Source: Oscillospiraceae bacterium | GTDB taxonomy: Bacteria; Bacillota; Clostridia; Oscillospirales; Ruminococcaceae | Direction: 5' to 3' | Assembly: GCA_022508825.1 (NCBI GenBank) | Contig: JAFLUI010000001.1 | Span: forward strand, 1 to 64,000 | Length of the DNA: 64,000 nt | Made by a program: the position numbers and the translations under genes | Part shown: piece after piece, positions 10,682 through 49,602 of the stretch | Position numbering within the stretch: the stretch's first letter is position 1 | Layout of the letters: the number at the start of each line of letters is the position of its first letter | The notes under the pieces: generated by a model | The model's database searches: none | What the model saw: only the letters and a program-made list of their open reading frames with translations | What the model was told of the DNA's origin: nothing

Positions 10682-11803
10682 TTACTTTACAAAAATATTC
10701 TTAACATCATTAAATGTTACTACAACCATAAGAACCATAAGCAGAGCAAATCCCACAAAGTGTATCATACCCTCTGTCTCTGCCTTCATAGCCTTGCGGC
10801 GTATCGCCTCAACGATAAGCAGGACAAGTCTGCCGCCGTCCAGAGCAGGAACAGGCAGGAGGTTGAAGATTCCTATGTTTATGGTGACAAGAGTTGCAAT
10901 GTCAAGCAGGAAGCTTATGTCAAAGCCGCTTTGCTCAGCCACATCTCCTATTGTAGTGACAATTCCTACAGGTCCCTGCAGATCGTTTACCCCATATTTT
11001 CCTCTGATTATATCCCTGAGAGACATAAGCACTATCCTGCCGTAGTAAAGAGCATTTTTAAAAGAATAGGGCACCAGATTTGCAGCGGTTATCTTCACTG
11101 CCTGCACCTTGAAATCATAAATAAGCGTGCTTTTGCCCGTGGCAGGGTCTGTCTTCATTTCAAAACGGACGTTATCAAGTCTGACAAGCTCCCCGTTCCG
11201 CCTTACAACAAAGTCAACAATGCCGTCCTCGTCGTTTCCCAGCTGATAAATAATATCCTTTGCCGAAAATATCCTTACACCGTTTATTTTGACAATGGTA
11301 TCATTCATCTGCAAGCCATACTGGGTGCTTACAGCATCATCTGAAAACCACACTATCTCAGAGGACGTCACCCTGCCGTCCACAAGCAGAAGCACCACAG
11401 AAAGGATAAATCCCAGAATGAGGTTCATGACCGCTCCTGCCGCAATAACCGCTATCCTTGATGGAACGGGCTTTTTACGGAAGGAATTTGGATCGTCATC
11501 CTCAATATCCTCTCCCATTGAGCAGAAGCCGCCTATCGGAAGGAGCCTAAGAGTGAAAAGAGTCTCCTCCCCCTGCTTTTTGTATATCACCGGACCCATT
11601 CCTATGGCAAATTCGTCCACACGTATGCCGCACTTCTTTGCCACGATAAAGTGTCCGAACTCATGTATCACAATTATAAGACAGAAAAACGCCGCTGCGA
11701 ACAGGATAGACAAAACAGTCCCCGAAACACGGGAGCCGCCGCCTGCAGCCGCTTTTTCAGCCGTCTTTTCAGCAGCCATTAAAACATAAGTAAATTTATC
11801 CAT
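10682..11803 (-). CDS. rseP: Site-2 intramembrane zinc metalloprotease (RseP/RasP family)
   Basis: A membrane protease that in relatives cleaves anti-sigma factors and leftover signal peptides inside the bilayer. Seen: the HExxH zinc motif VIHEFGHFIVAKK in the first membrane segment, a PDZ-like region in the middle (QYGLQMNDTIVKINGVRI), and the second metal-ligand motif NLLPVPALDGGRLV in the C-terminal membrane segment. The N-terminal tail with GGGSR is slightly longer than usual, giving 373 residues. The start has GAGGT 5 bases upstream. It is 17 bp after dxr, as in many Firmicutes operons. It could serve the ECF sigma/anti-sigma pair at 29.7-31.3 kb, but that is inference. Confidence 0.95.
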   Translation of the reverse strand: MDKFTYVLMAAEKTAEKAAAGGGSRVSGTVLSILFAAAFFCLIIVIHEFGHFIVAKKCGIRVDEFAIGMGPVIYKKQGEETLFTLRLLPIGGFCSMGEDIEDDDPNSFRKKPVPSRIAVIAAGAVMNLILGFILSVVLLLVDGRVTSSEIVWFSDDAVSTQYGLQMNDTIVKINGVRIFSAKDIIYQLGNDEDGIVDFVVRRNGELVRLDNVRFEMKTDPATGKSTLIYDFKVQAVKITAANLVPYSFKNALYYGRIVLMSLRDIIRGKYGVNDLQGPVGIVTTIGDVAEQSGFDISFLLDIATLVTINIGIFNLLPVPALDGGRLVLLIVEAIRRKAMKAETEGMIHFVGFALLMVLMVVVTFNDVKNIFVK

Positions 11804-16591: not shown

Positions 16592-17377
16592 TCAGTTTGC
16601 AATATGGGTCAGAATATATTCAGAAAGCTCTCCGTACTTTTCCTTTTTGAGCCTTACCCCGTTTGCCTCCGCCGCAGAATCCGGAAGCTTTCCGTCATTT
16701 CCCTTAAATCCTGTATTCACATCAAGATACCGGACGTTCTTTTTATTTGCAAATTTAAGCAGCTCGGAGTTATATGCATCGATATCCGAATTATAGGCAA
16801 CGCTGCTTTCACTTCCGGCAGGTACAGGCAGAAGGGACATAAGATATATCTCGGTGTCTGGAGCCTGACTTACAACAGCATCCACAAATGCCTCCATCTC
16901 GTCAAAAAGACCGGAATGATCGCTGGTCACGCTTCCCATTCCTATCATTATGTAGACCCCGGACACATTTTTGCGTATCACCGCATCTGCTATACCGCTT
17001 TCCACACCGTCAACGGACAATATCACCGAATTGAAATTTTCCGGAGTGATGGCATCGGATATCAGCATATTTCCGGACGGTACATATTCATAATCCGCAA
17101 GCCCTGCAAGAGCTCTGTTGCCGATAAACGCCACATCTTTATAGTAGCTGTCGTCCTGACGCTCTCCCGCCGGGACAGGATTTATAACACTGCTGCTCTG
17201 CCCCACAGGGTCTACGTAGACCACTGCGTCTGTGGTATTGTCAAGCATTTCGCTTGTCACCACGAAGTCCTCTTTCATATAAAAAACAAAGCATACCGCA
17301 AAGCTTGCAAAAATAAACAGTAAAATAAAGGAAAAACGAAACTTGGCTTTTTTCTTTTCCTTTTGATTTATCATCAT
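16592..17377 (-). CDS. SGNH/GDSL-fold membrane-anchored protein lacking catalytic residues
   Basis: 261 residues with a short cytoplasmic Lys-rich start, one membrane anchor (FILLFIFASFAVCFVFYM, about 15-32) and an extracellular domain. From about residue 84 the order of motifs matches Clostridia SGNH hydrolases (usual block I FIGDSR, block III LGxNE, block V DGIH). Here block I is FIGNRALAG, block III is IMIGMGSV and block V is ANGVRLKK, so the nucleophile Ser and the Asp/His of the triad all appear replaced. It may be a binding or scaffold pseudoenzyme. It is upstream of a small membrane protein. The assignment to SGNH rests on motif order and is moderately sure. Confidence 0.65.
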   Translation of the reverse strand: MMINQKEKKKAKFRFSFILLFIFASFAVCFVFYMKEDFVVTSEMLDNTTDAVVYVDPVGQSSSVINPVPAGERQDDSYYKDVAFIGNRALAGLADYEYVPSGNMLISDAITPENFNSVILSVDGVESGIADAVIRKNVSGVYIMIGMGSVTSDHSGLFDEMEAFVDAVVSQAPDTEIYLMSLLPVPAGSESSVAYNSDIDAYNSELLKFANKKNVRYLDVNTGFKGNDGKLPDSAAEANGVRLKKEKYGELSEYILTHIAN

Positions 17378-17418: not shown

Positions 17419-17447
17419 ATTATATCACAGCTCCGCAAAAAATGCAA
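17419..17447 (-). promoter_or_regulatory. Promoter of the SGNH-like gene
   Basis: The minus strand has -35 TTGCAT (17447-17442), a 17-bp spacer and -10 TATAAT (17424-17419), about 40 bases before the 17377 start. It lies downstream of the small-RNA terminator, so the gene does not depend on the sRNA promoter. Confidence 0.75.
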
Positions 17448-17483: not shown

Positions 17484-17583
17484 GGGTCAAAATAATAAAG
17501 ACTGCCCTGAAACGCAGTCTTTATTATAGGGGTAATATTTGGTATATATTGAGTAGATTGGTAAGAATTTACTAAGTACACCC
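17484..17583 (-). ncRNA. Candidate independent small RNA, about 100 nt
   Basis: A strong promoter (17590-17618) and a strong terminator (17492-17527) bracket about 60 bases with no plausible ORF. The predicted RNA begins near 17583 with GUAGGGUGUACUUAG, has a U/A/C-rich single-stranded middle containing AUAUAUACC and UUACCCC, and ends in a 14-bp hairpin and U-run. No known family was recognised. The next gene has its own promoter after the terminator, so this need not be a leader. Confidence 0.55.
17492..17527 (-). terminator. Intrinsic terminator of the small-RNA candidate
   Basis: Arms 17492-17505 and 17514-17527 pair over 14 bp around an 8-base loop. On the minus strand the hairpin is followed by ATTATTTTG. 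Confidence 0.8.
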
Positions 17584-17589
17584 TACAAT

Positions 17590-17618
17590 ATTATAACATT
17601 TAAAGAACAATTTGTCAA
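17590..17618 (-). promoter_or_regulatory. Consensus sigma-A promoter of the small-RNA candidate
   Basis: The minus strand has TTGACA (17618-17613), 17 bp, TATAAT (17595-17590): both hexamers perfect. It lies 37 bp after the end of the membrane-protein gene at 17655 and points at the terminator 60 bases away, not directly at a gene. Confidence 0.8.
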
Positions 17619-17654: not shown

Positions 17655-18194
17655 TCACTTCATCTTCCGCAGGAAAGTGGGTCTAAACCACTTTTTATAG
17701 CACTCCACCAATACTGACAGAACGTAGTCATACATTACAAAAACAAGGTTTCCGAAGACAAAAAGTGCAGGTATCAGCCATTCGTTGTAAAATCCGAACT
17801 CCTCAAACAAGTCAAGTGTTCCCAGTATGTTCATAAGGATATAGAAAATTGCCGCCACCGCTGCATCAAACACTGCAAGCTTGCAGAGAACAGCTATAAG
17901 CTTTACCTTAAATCCCTCAAAATAGGACTTCAGTATAGGATAGTACCCGAAAAGAAATGTAAAAAACAGCCATGCGTCCTTATCGGGAGTCACAAAGAAA
18001 GCAAGGACGACGATCACCGCATAGGTGACAAAAGCCCATGAACGGCTTATTTCAATTGCCACAACAGCCACAAGGGCTCCCGCAAATAAAGGGAGGGTCA
18101 TGCTAAGGATCGGGAACACCGCTGTAAGGAACATCATTACCAGACAAAGTGATGCTATCACTCCGCCAAGCGACACCTTATAACTGGTTTTCAT
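17655..18194 (-). CDS. Integral membrane protein, possibly ECF-transporter S-component-like
   Basis: 179 residues with about five membrane spans and a basic C-terminal tail (KKWFRPTFLRKMK). The N-terminal KTSYKVSLGGVIASLCLVMMFL and the compact five- to six-span layout recall substrate-binding S components of ECF transporters, but no substrate can be named and no riboswitch precedes it. The start at 18194 (MKTSYKV) follows GGGGAGGG; an in-frame ATG seven codons earlier does not. It lies 108 bp after a DUF5685 gene, with repeat copy B in between. Confidence 0.65.
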   Translation of the reverse strand: MKTSYKVSLGGVIASLCLVMMFLTAVFPILSMTLPLFAGALVAVVAIEISRSWAFVTYAVIVVLAFFVTPDKDAWLFFTFLFGYYPILKSYFEGFKVKLIAVLCKLAVFDAAVAAIFYILMNILGTLDLFEEFGFYNEWLIPALFVFGNLVFVMYDYVLSVLVECYKKWFRPTFLRKMK

Positions 18195-18235
18195 AGACGC
18201 CCTCCCCTCAATCAAGCATCAATATTGAAATATTA

Positions 18236-19350: not shown

Positions 19351-19622
19351 GTGTAAAAGCTTTGATGAGGAGCAAAACGGATCAGGGAAATTTTCAGAGA
19401 ATTGCCGTTTGGTGTGAGGCAATATTTCCCCCCGATAATAGATCACCTCGGAGCTTTCTGCCGAACAGCTTACTGCTCAGTAGGACGGAACGGGCTTCTC
19501 CCGTTACAGAGAAGCGCATTGATAGATGCGGCAGAGTGCGGATTTTTCCGAACGAGAGTGGTACCGTGGATGTATTTTATACCTTCACCTCTTGATTATG
19601 TCTTGAGGTGAAGGTTTTTTAT
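19351..19622 (+). promoter_or_regulatory. T-box riboswitch, likely isoleucine-specific
   Basis: The tRNA-sensing leader of ilvB. Stem I: a basal helix (19356-19361 with 19452-19457), a GATGAGG kink-type segment, helix 19367-19370 / 19446-19449 and a distal arm with loop GGTGTGA. The specifier loop places AUC (19442-19444, Ile) followed by A. The T-box core (AGAGTGGTACCGTGG, 19555-19569) carries UGGU, whose U fits a tRNA with discriminator A, as tRNA-Ile has. Uncharged tRNA-Ile should stabilise the antiterminator and allow ilvB-cimA transcription. CUC (Leu) at 19447-19449 was considered but lies in a helix. Confidence 0.88.
19581..19620 (+). terminator. T-box terminator ahead of ilvB
   Basis: An 11-bp perfect stem (19581-19591 / 19605-19615), 13-base loop and TTTTTT run. 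It is mutually exclusive with the T-box antiterminator. Confidence 0.92.
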
Positions 19623-19648: not shown

Positions 19649-21325
19649 ATGATTTTAAACGGTTCTCAGATAATTCTTGAATGTCTTTTAGAACAGGGGG
19701 TGGACACGGTTTTCGGCTATCCCGGAGGTGCGGTATTAAATATCTATGACGCTCTTTACGACTACAGCGACAGGATCAGACACATACTCACCTCTCATGA
19801 GCAGGGAGCTTCCCATGCGGCGGACGGTTATGCCCGTTCCACCGGAAAGACCGGCGTAGTCATCGCAACATCCGGTCCGGGAGCAACGAATCTTGTTACC
19901 GGTCTTGCCACCGCTTACATGGACAGCATTCCCGTAGTCGCCATTACCGGAAATGTGGCAACTCCCCTGCTTGGTCTGGACAGCTTTCAGGAGGTGGACA
20001 TCACCGGAATTACCATGCCAATTACCAAGCACAACTACATTGTCAAGGATGTTGCCAAACTTGCAGACGCTATCCGTGAAGCCTTCTTTATAGCAAATGA
20101 CGGAAGAAAAGGTCCGGTTCTCATTGACGTTCCCAAGGATATTTCTGCGGCAAAGTGTGAATTTCAGCCGAAGGTTCCCGAAGGACACAGCTACAGGATC
20201 GATGATGAAGAAATTTCCGCTGCTGTGAAAATTATCGAGCAATCGGAAAAGCCTTTCATTTACGCAGGAGGAGGCGTGGTTTCCTGCAATGCCACCAAGG
20301 AGCTTGCGGAATTTGCGGAGCTTATCGACGCTCCGGTTTCCCTTTCTCTTATGGGGCAGTGCGCTTTCGACAATTCGGACGACAGATACACAGGAATGCT
20401 GGGAATGCACGGAACGAAAACCTCTTCCCTTGCCCTTGCCGAAAGTGACCTGATGATAGTTCTTGGCGCAAGGTTTTCCGACAGGGTCACTTGCAGTACC
20501 GACAGCTTCCGGACTGTCACCGGAACAGCGAAAATTCTCCATATTGAAATTGACCCTGCCGAAGTAAACAAAAACATTCCCGCAGATGCCCGTATCTGCG
20601 GAAATGTAGAACTTGTTCTGAAAAGGCTGAACGAAACTCTCAACCGTAAAAAGCATCCGGAATGGATGAAACAAATTGCAGATTGGAAAAGAACCTACCC
20701 CCTTACACAGGTTTCGGAAAATTCCGGGGAAGTTCTTCCCAAAGACGTTATCGAAACCCTTGATGAGCTGACCCACGGCGAAGCAATAATAAGCACCGAG
20801 GTCGGACAGCACCAGATGTGGACTGCGGAATTCTACAATTTCCGCAAACCAAGGTGCTTTGCTTCCTCGGGCGGTCTTGGAACAATGGGCTACGGTCTGG
20901 GAGCTGCCATCGGCTGCAAGGTTGGAAATCCGGACAGAGTTGTGGTAAACTGCGCAGGAGACGGAAGCTTCTACATGAACATGAACGAGCTTACCACCCT
21001 TGCAAAATACCAGCTTCCCGTTATAGAACTGATTTTCAACAACAGCGTCCTTGGTATGGTACGCCAGTGGCAGAAGCTTTTCTACAACAATCATTTTTCC
21101 CAGACCACTCTTGAAAAGCCCACGGATTTTGAGCTTCTCGGCAAGGCTCTTGGCATTGAAGCTATGACAATAAAAACAAAGGACGATATCCGTCCCGTTC
21201 TTGAAAAAGCTATCGCTCTTAATAAGCCGGTGCTTATAAACTGCATTATCGACAAGGATATAAACGTTCTGCCGATGGTCCCTGCAGGAGCTTCAATTGC
21301 AGAGCCCATACTGGAAATAAAATAA
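19649..21325 (+). CDS. ilvB: Acetolactate/acetohydroxybutyrate synthase, large subunit
   Basis: ThDP- and FAD-dependent enzyme that condenses pyruvate with pyruvate or 2-ketobutyrate, first common step of valine, leucine and isoleucine synthesis. Seen: VFGYPGGAVLNIYDAL and HEQGASHAADGYARSTGK (ThDP-activating Glu), GPGATNLVTGLATAYMDS, SFQEVDI, and the ThDP/Mg motif GDGSFYMNMNELTTLAKY...NNSVLGMVRQWQ. At 558 residues it is full length. GGGAG precedes the ATG. No regulatory subunit gene (ilvN) is adjacent, so it must be elsewhere or absent. It is 16 bp from cimA, which makes the 2-ketobutyrate precursor path. Confidence 0.95.
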   Translation: MILNGSQIILECLLEQGVDTVFGYPGGAVLNIYDALYDYSDRIRHILTSHEQGASHAADGYARSTGKTGVVIATSGPGATNLVTGLATAYMDSIPVVAITGNVATPLLGLDSFQEVDITGITMPITKHNYIVKDVAKLADAIREAFFIANDGRKGPVLIDVPKDISAAKCEFQPKVPEGHSYRIDDEEISAAVKIIEQSEKPFIYAGGGVVSCNATKELAEFAELIDAPVSLSLMGQCAFDNSDDRYTGMLGMHGTKTSSLALAESDLMIVLGARFSDRVTCSTDSFRTVTGTAKILHIEIDPAEVNKNIPADARICGNVELVLKRLNETLNRKKHPEWMKQIADWKRTYPLTQVSENSGEVLPKDVIETLDELTHGEAIISTEVGQHQMWTAEFYNFRKPRCFASSGGLGTMGYGLGAAIGCKVGNPDRVVVNCAGDGSFYMNMNELTTLAKYQLPVIELIFNNSVLGMVRQWQKLFYNNHFSQTTLEKPTDFELLGKALGIEAMTIKTKDDIRPVLEKAIALNKPVLINCIIDKDINVLPMVPAGASIAEPILEIK

Positions 21326-49130: not shown

Positions 49131-49159
49131 TTGACAAATCAAAGCCGCCGCTGTATAAT
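49131..49159 (+). promoter_or_regulatory. Promoter of the trp operon
   Basis: TTGACA (49131-49136), 17 bp, TATAAT (49154-49159): both hexamers perfect. Confidence 0.9.
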
Positions 49160-49397
49160 TGGTGATGTTAATTTAATATAATAAATTCGTTGAGCAAAGG
49201 TAAGTAACAGATATGCTGATGAATCAGAGAATCCGGCGGCGGTGAGAGTCCGGGTCATAACGGTATCTGCGAATGGATTTGTGAGAAGCAAGGGCAAACA
49301 GTCGTATAGACTCAGTAGTCCGCGCCGATTTCCTGCGTTAGTGGATAGGGTATAACTGCGTATGCGGCGTACTTGAACGACTATGTTGAAGTTTTGC

Positions 49398-49429
49398 ATC
49401 CGCTTGTACCCAACAAGGCGGATTTTTTT
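49398..49429 (+). terminator. Terminator-like hairpin inside the trp leader
   Basis: Arms 49398-49407 and 49413-49423 with one bulged G, a 5-base loop and seven T residues, all upstream of the T-box core. It could be stem III of the riboswitch that doubles as an early stop. Confidence 0.5.
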
Positions 49430-49465
49430 CATGTCCGCGAAAACGGGTGGCACCACGAGGTTTAT

Positions 49466-49512
49466 CGTCCCGTCTGCTGAAAGATCGGCAGACAGGATGG
49501 TAAGCCTTTTTT
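49466..49512 (+). terminator. T-box terminator ahead of trpE
   Basis: GTCTGC/GCAGAC core (49472-49477 / 49488-49493), extended outward to CGTCC / GGATGG with one mismatch, followed by TTTTTT at 49507-49512. Confidence 0.8.
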
Positions 49513-49602
49513 AATTGACAGCGATGCAGAAGCTTTATTATGTTACCGAGCCGCAAGCTTACAAGTTACCTCAAAACAAATCAACGGAAAAGGAGTTTTA
49601 TT

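Follow-up and report, generated by a model that had tools for sequence, protein, structure and literature searches.

A candidate free-standing small RNA unit in an Oscillospiraceae bacterium

The DNA analysed here, a 64,000-nucleotide stretch of an Oscillospiraceae bacterium contig (the window), carries on its minus strand what its sequence signals suggest is probably a real transcription unit. The anatomy of this unit gives good support for a free-standing noncoding element, and the best reading of it is a young, species-restricted small RNA unit. With confidence slightly short of even, we propose that the unit is independent, that it makes a ~96-nt noncoding RNA present in this species only among the genomes searched, and that this RNA likely acts in trans as a base-pairing sRNA. 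A function as an sRNA is plausible, with neither conservation nor target analysis adding weight to it. The preliminary description of the site had called it a candidate orphan small RNA; the free-standing noncoding unit stands on its anatomy, while a regulatory role gained no support from relatives, from structure in the 5' half or from target pairing.

A promoter and a terminator delimit a probable short noncoding unit

Features of the unit and its neighbours:
17613–17618, minus strand: promoter −35 hexamer TTGACA, identified by motif match and shuffle count
17590–17595, minus strand: promoter −10 hexamer TATAAT, with a 17-nt spacer and a preceding TG
17488–17583, minus strand: predicted noncoding RNA of ~96 nt, its ends estimated from promoter spacing and the terminator
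17528–17540, minus strand: linker AAAUAUUACCCCU, predicted to be unpaired (probability 0.84–1.00), candidate pairing region
17492–17527, minus strand: intrinsic terminator hairpin of 14 bp with an 8-nt loop, U-run at 17491–17488
16592–17377, minus strand: downstream gene of the GDSL-like lipase/acylhydrolase family (Pfam PF13472), context outside the RNA
17419–17447, minus strand: separate promoter of the GDSL gene, TTGCAT-17-TATAAT
17655–18215, minus strand: upstream gene (context), encoding a 186-aa membrane-like protein that has no match in Pfam

The promoter at 17618–17590 scores 12 of 12 against the sigma-70-type consensus, which bears out the perfect promoter described earlier and adds the strand that the description had not given. 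The window contains four perfect TTGACA-N16-18-TATAAT sites where shuffled sequences would give 0.04, far more than chance, and the other three precede genes, one of them via a T-box leader. Read 5' to 3', the end of the upstream gene at 17655 is followed by a T-rich tract, the promoter, the start expected near 17583, an RNA stretch of ~56 nt rich in A, U and C, and the terminator, whose stem (17527–17492) consists of 14 perfect pairs and runs into UUUU. The terminator folds at −18.3 kcal/mol (z = −6.3), a value equalled by none of 200 shuffles; a transcript of about 100 nt ending in a strong terminator, as described earlier, agrees with these values. The RNA contains no ATG, and the sole ORF of at least 30 aa in its orientation opens at a GTG that lies just 2 nt inside the predicted 5' end; this frame overruns the terminator and has no family match, in accord with the earlier statement that no ORF lies between promoter and terminator.

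Folding of the whole RNA gave a z-score of −4.0, which comes mainly from the terminator, since the terminator alone reaches −6.3 and the 5' 56 nt reach −0.31. The middle of the RNA had been described as mostly unpaired. This fits the ACC-rich linker at nt 44–56, with predicted unpaired probabilities of 0.84–1.00 when the start is set at 17583, but not the first 43 nt, which are predicted to form a weak hairpin (−6.1 kcal/mol, z = −0.31) no better than those of shuffled sequences. The site shows three features expected of a free-standing small RNA gene, namely its own promoter, its own intrinsic terminator within 50–300 nt and no protein-coding ORF, and the linker at nt 44–56 is predicted to provide the unpaired seed region of a trans-acting base-pairing sRNA.

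From these strong signals, RNA polymerase with the housekeeping sigma factor would be expected to start near 17583 and to stop at the hairpin at 17527–17492. In the product, the weak 5' hairpin would be followed by a short unpaired linker of A, U and C that includes ACCCC, and then by the terminator hairpin, which may also shield the 3' end of the RNA. The most likely role of the ACC/ACCCC linker would be to pair with targets in trans.

A survey of 279,869 bases (the window and 12 more stretches from its genome) yielded 23 perfect promoters by hand count, two of which reach a terminator before any gene. The second of these lies on contig 46, and a 28-aa ORF preceded by a Shine-Dalgarno-like sequence separates its promoter from its terminator. 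In the 280-kb sample, the window unit is thus alone in pairing a perfect promoter with a terminator and having no gene or short ORF in between, a rough figure that depends on a crude gene caller skipping ORFs below 60 aa and on a strict terminator rule.

Searches for relatives of the RNA

The genome sets searched contain one genome per species. A DNA search with promoter plus RNA in 61 genomes (its own included) returned, among the matches listed, only short pieces besides the self-match, and the best of the listed pieces align with promoter or terminator. Querying with just the RNA body gave a match at E ≤ 0.05 in 33 of 396 family genomes, again including its own; the terminator stem accounts for the best non-self match (E = 4.8e-4), and all others are 17–39-nt pieces of the terminator or of A/T-rich linker. 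At the order level (394 genomes), one genome besides its own reached E ≤ 1e-4, through the terminator only. Apart from promoter or terminator pieces and short matches, the searches of 21 genus, 396 family and 394 order genomes revealed nothing homologous to the RNA body, and none of them found the RNA to be conserved in related species. The preliminary description had suggested a covariance search across Ruminococcus. Model R1, built from the single sequence, gives 130 bits against itself, and its top score among the other 20 genus genomes is 24.9 bits. The ten weak R1 matches elsewhere were rejected as candidates; for nine of them, no promoter-like box within 60 nt scores better than 8 of 12.

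A scan of the whole window against Rfam 15 gave no match at gathering score, and a local scan at low threshold gave chance-level matches only; the RNA still matches no recognised family, as first noted. A tracrRNA, antisense or repeat-derived RNA was rejected because no extended second match occurs in its own genome, where the best non-self match is the RNA's own hairpin reversed, followed by promoter pieces. We likewise rejected a phage or plasmid origin, since phage and plasmid matches are confined to short promoter, terminator or flank pieces; an exact-pattern search of IMG/VR with two patterns found no match.

Pairing with gene starts and comparison with known sRNAs

The UACCCC and UUACC tracts had been proposed to meet Shine-Dalgarno sequences, a proposal that found no support as an excess over shuffled queries. 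Across 188 gene starts with Shine-Dalgarno-like motifs, drawn from 280 kb (about a tenth of the genome, with crude starts), nt 1–57 of the RNA pair with a mean energy of −11.80 kcal/mol, weaker than shuffled queries (−13.17 kcal/mol), and nt 36–57 pair about as well as shuffled queries do (−6.66 versus −6.85 kcal/mol). The linker part pairs better with starts than with gene interiors (−6.66 versus −5.81), as expected of a C-containing sequence. None of the 188 start regions contains GGGGTAA, which is perfectly complementary to UUACCCC, and preferential pairing with ribosome-binding sites was not seen across this set. The linker at nt 44–56, predicted to be unpaired, leaves base pairing plausible.

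LhrC-type sRNAs of Listeria are described as short RNAs with stem-loops and a single-stranded C-containing stretch, and RsaE, SprD and RNAIII of Staphylococcus aureus and FsrA of Bacillus subtilis are cited as users of the LhrC motif (PMC4132741). The window RNA resembles the LhrC type in being short and in having stem-loops and, before its terminator, a C-containing stretch, predicted to be single-stranded, that could meet Shine-Dalgarno sequences. It differs from LhrC, RsaE and FsrA as described there in lacking a UCCC motif, having only ACCCC, and from the LhrC type in that its genome carries the RNA body only once, and in having no excess of pairing at gene starts and no match to an Rfam sRNA family at gathering score. 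Our literature searches, within the sources they covered, found no sRNA study of this genus. If expressed, the RNA would add another species-specific sRNA, from a lineage in which these searches found no sRNA work; on its own, it answers no open question.

The locus is arranged differently in the closest species

In G002, the closest species compared (82% protein identity), the genes flanking the RNA lie 7 kb apart with three genes between them: a response regulator/HD-GYP gene and two histidine-kinase-type genes, named by sequence inspection. The same three-gene block is present in the window's genome on contig 101, beside an RNase R-like gene. The RNA-bearing stretch has no counterpart in G002, where homology resumes only around the GDSL promoter. 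This three-gene two-component block, which takes the RNA's place in the sister species and lies elsewhere in this genome, spans L106 2942–9505 and L137 10287–16875; by inspection its histidine kinases are hybrid, the second with a DegV-like C-terminal part.

The main rival to an sRNA gene, to which we give roughly a one-in-three chance, is that rearrangement or gene loss left behind a promoter-terminator island without function, a scar that may be transcribed into an inert RNA. The block that fills the interval in the nearest species and sits elsewhere in this genome is consistent with such a history, as is an RNA without relatives, without structure beyond its terminator and without a target signal. 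Promoter, terminator and unpaired linker are nonetheless all intact, which would be unexpected for an old relic, and the sister-species block begins without a recognisable copy of the window promoter. Lying at a site whose arrangement differs between the sister species, the RNA could shed light on the emergence of new RNA genes.

The downstream GDSL gene has its own promoter motif

The unit lies on the same strand as the GDSL gene, and its terminator ends ~110 nt before the start of that gene. It could on this account serve as a distal second promoter with an attenuated 5' leader, in which a signal would relieve the terminator. We consider this unlikely, and the evidence for a leader is weak given that the terminator persists in both predicted folds and that the gene has its own promoter. 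GDSL orthologues of at least 57% identity occur in 13 other genus genomes, and 10 of the 13 share a TTGCA-N17-19-TAT box within 200 nt upstream; among the remaining three, L043 has its box farther upstream, L050 has none and L051 lies at a contig edge. The corresponding motif at 17447–17419 upholds the earlier statement that the next gene has its own promoter, and with such a motif in place the RNA unit would not be needed for GDSL expression. The perfect distal promoter, in contrast, is absent ahead of all 12 orthologues that could be examined. In the 206-nt leader that read-through would produce, the terminator hairpin is retained in both the MFE and the centroid fold, neither of which contains an alternative antiterminator, and no Rfam cis-regulator matches locally.

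Attenuator and T-box leaders share with the window unit a promoter, a length of ~100 nt or more and a terminator, but differ from it in that the gene after the window unit comes with a separate promoter, and neither an antiterminator fold nor a T-box match was found for the unit. The window itself carries two T-box leaders on the plus strand. One, at 19353–19595, precedes an acetolactate-synthase-like gene at 19649 and scores 92.3 bits against a gathering score of 93; the second, at 49181–49475, scores 84.7 bits, also under the gathering score of 93, is driven by the perfect promoter at 49131 and is followed by a gene at 49540.

Elements of similar layout in two other genomes of the genus

One of the weak R1 matches (E = 0.064) lies in G001 on contig C9 (L109 1475–1579), after an alcohol-dehydrogenase-like gene named by inspection, and belongs to a family of sRNA-like elements with a C-rich linker. 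In this copy, a promoter-like box scoring 10/12 is accompanied by two small hairpins, the C-rich linker, which is unpaired, and a strong terminator; a scan of it against Rfam gave no confident match. A DNA search with its sequence found a copy in G012, and covariance model R2, built from that first G012 copy, found the second at 95.6 bits. The two G012 copies (L144 526–618 on contig C52 and L163 1501–1596 on contig C4) sit in 2.1-kb stretches that are 90% identical and possibly represent two strains in one assembly; their 5' hairpins differ by a compensatory change, UGCGCA/UGCGCA to UGCACA/UGUGCA. The promoter box of the family is of the TATAATATACCA type, and its linker, CAUUCCCCUAA(A)CAAUCCCUA, is identical in the three copies bar one base. 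Among the 396 family genomes one, G001, carries the exact linker pattern, and G012 does not figure in that result.

These elements resemble the window RNA in genus, in length and in having a promoter-like box, a 5' hairpin, an unpaired CCCCUA linker and a terminator. That such a layout recurs in two other genomes, with a linker almost constant over three copies, speaks for the sRNA reading of the window unit. Their particular linker and 5' hairpin are absent from the window RNA, and the two show no significant sequence similarity. One further reading, to which we give a small chance, is that the genus uses a fast-evolving class of short sRNAs recognisable less by sequence than by layout: a strong promoter, then a small 5' hairpin, a linker with unpaired CCCCUA, and a terminator. 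The window RNA would then be a lineage-specific member beside the conserved G001 and G012 elements.

Direct kinship, with the window RNA as a diverged member of this family, we regard as very improbable. R2 does match the window at 17595–17491 with 25.6 bits, in register from TATAAT to the end of the terminator, and CCCUAUAA before the terminator is common to both. But the linker alignment is matched by 455, 501 and 816 of 1000 dinucleotide shuffles, unrelated gene ends with terminators score 22–36 bits with R2, and a whole-genome R2 search of the window's genome gives no match at E ≤ 1. R2 matches at that threshold number 16, and 12 of the 14 inspected lack the C-rich linker and the box. Since the linker alignment is no better than shuffles and 25.6 bits falls within the range of unrelated terminators, we claim no kinship; by these comparisons the window RNA and the family appear not to be detectably related.

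Least credible of all, and dropped as a candidate, is a leaderless, GTG-started small protein of 53 aa: its frame is open from 17581 to 17420, but it overruns the next gene's promoter as well as the terminator, has no room for a ribosome-binding site ahead of its GTG and matches nothing in Pfam or PHROGs.

Other units behind perfect promoters

Two other elements of this genome were seen in the survey of perfect promoters. At L122 16329–16540 lies the perfect promoter already mentioned, followed by its 28-aa ORF, MKNFSVKMYMQSVIYEMYNGFKLLCPKR, with the Shine-Dalgarno-like sequence and then by a terminator; this unit may be a small peptide or leader gene. At L127 10822–10930, on the minus strand, a drum RNA (RF02958) lies downstream of a perfect promoter at 11041.
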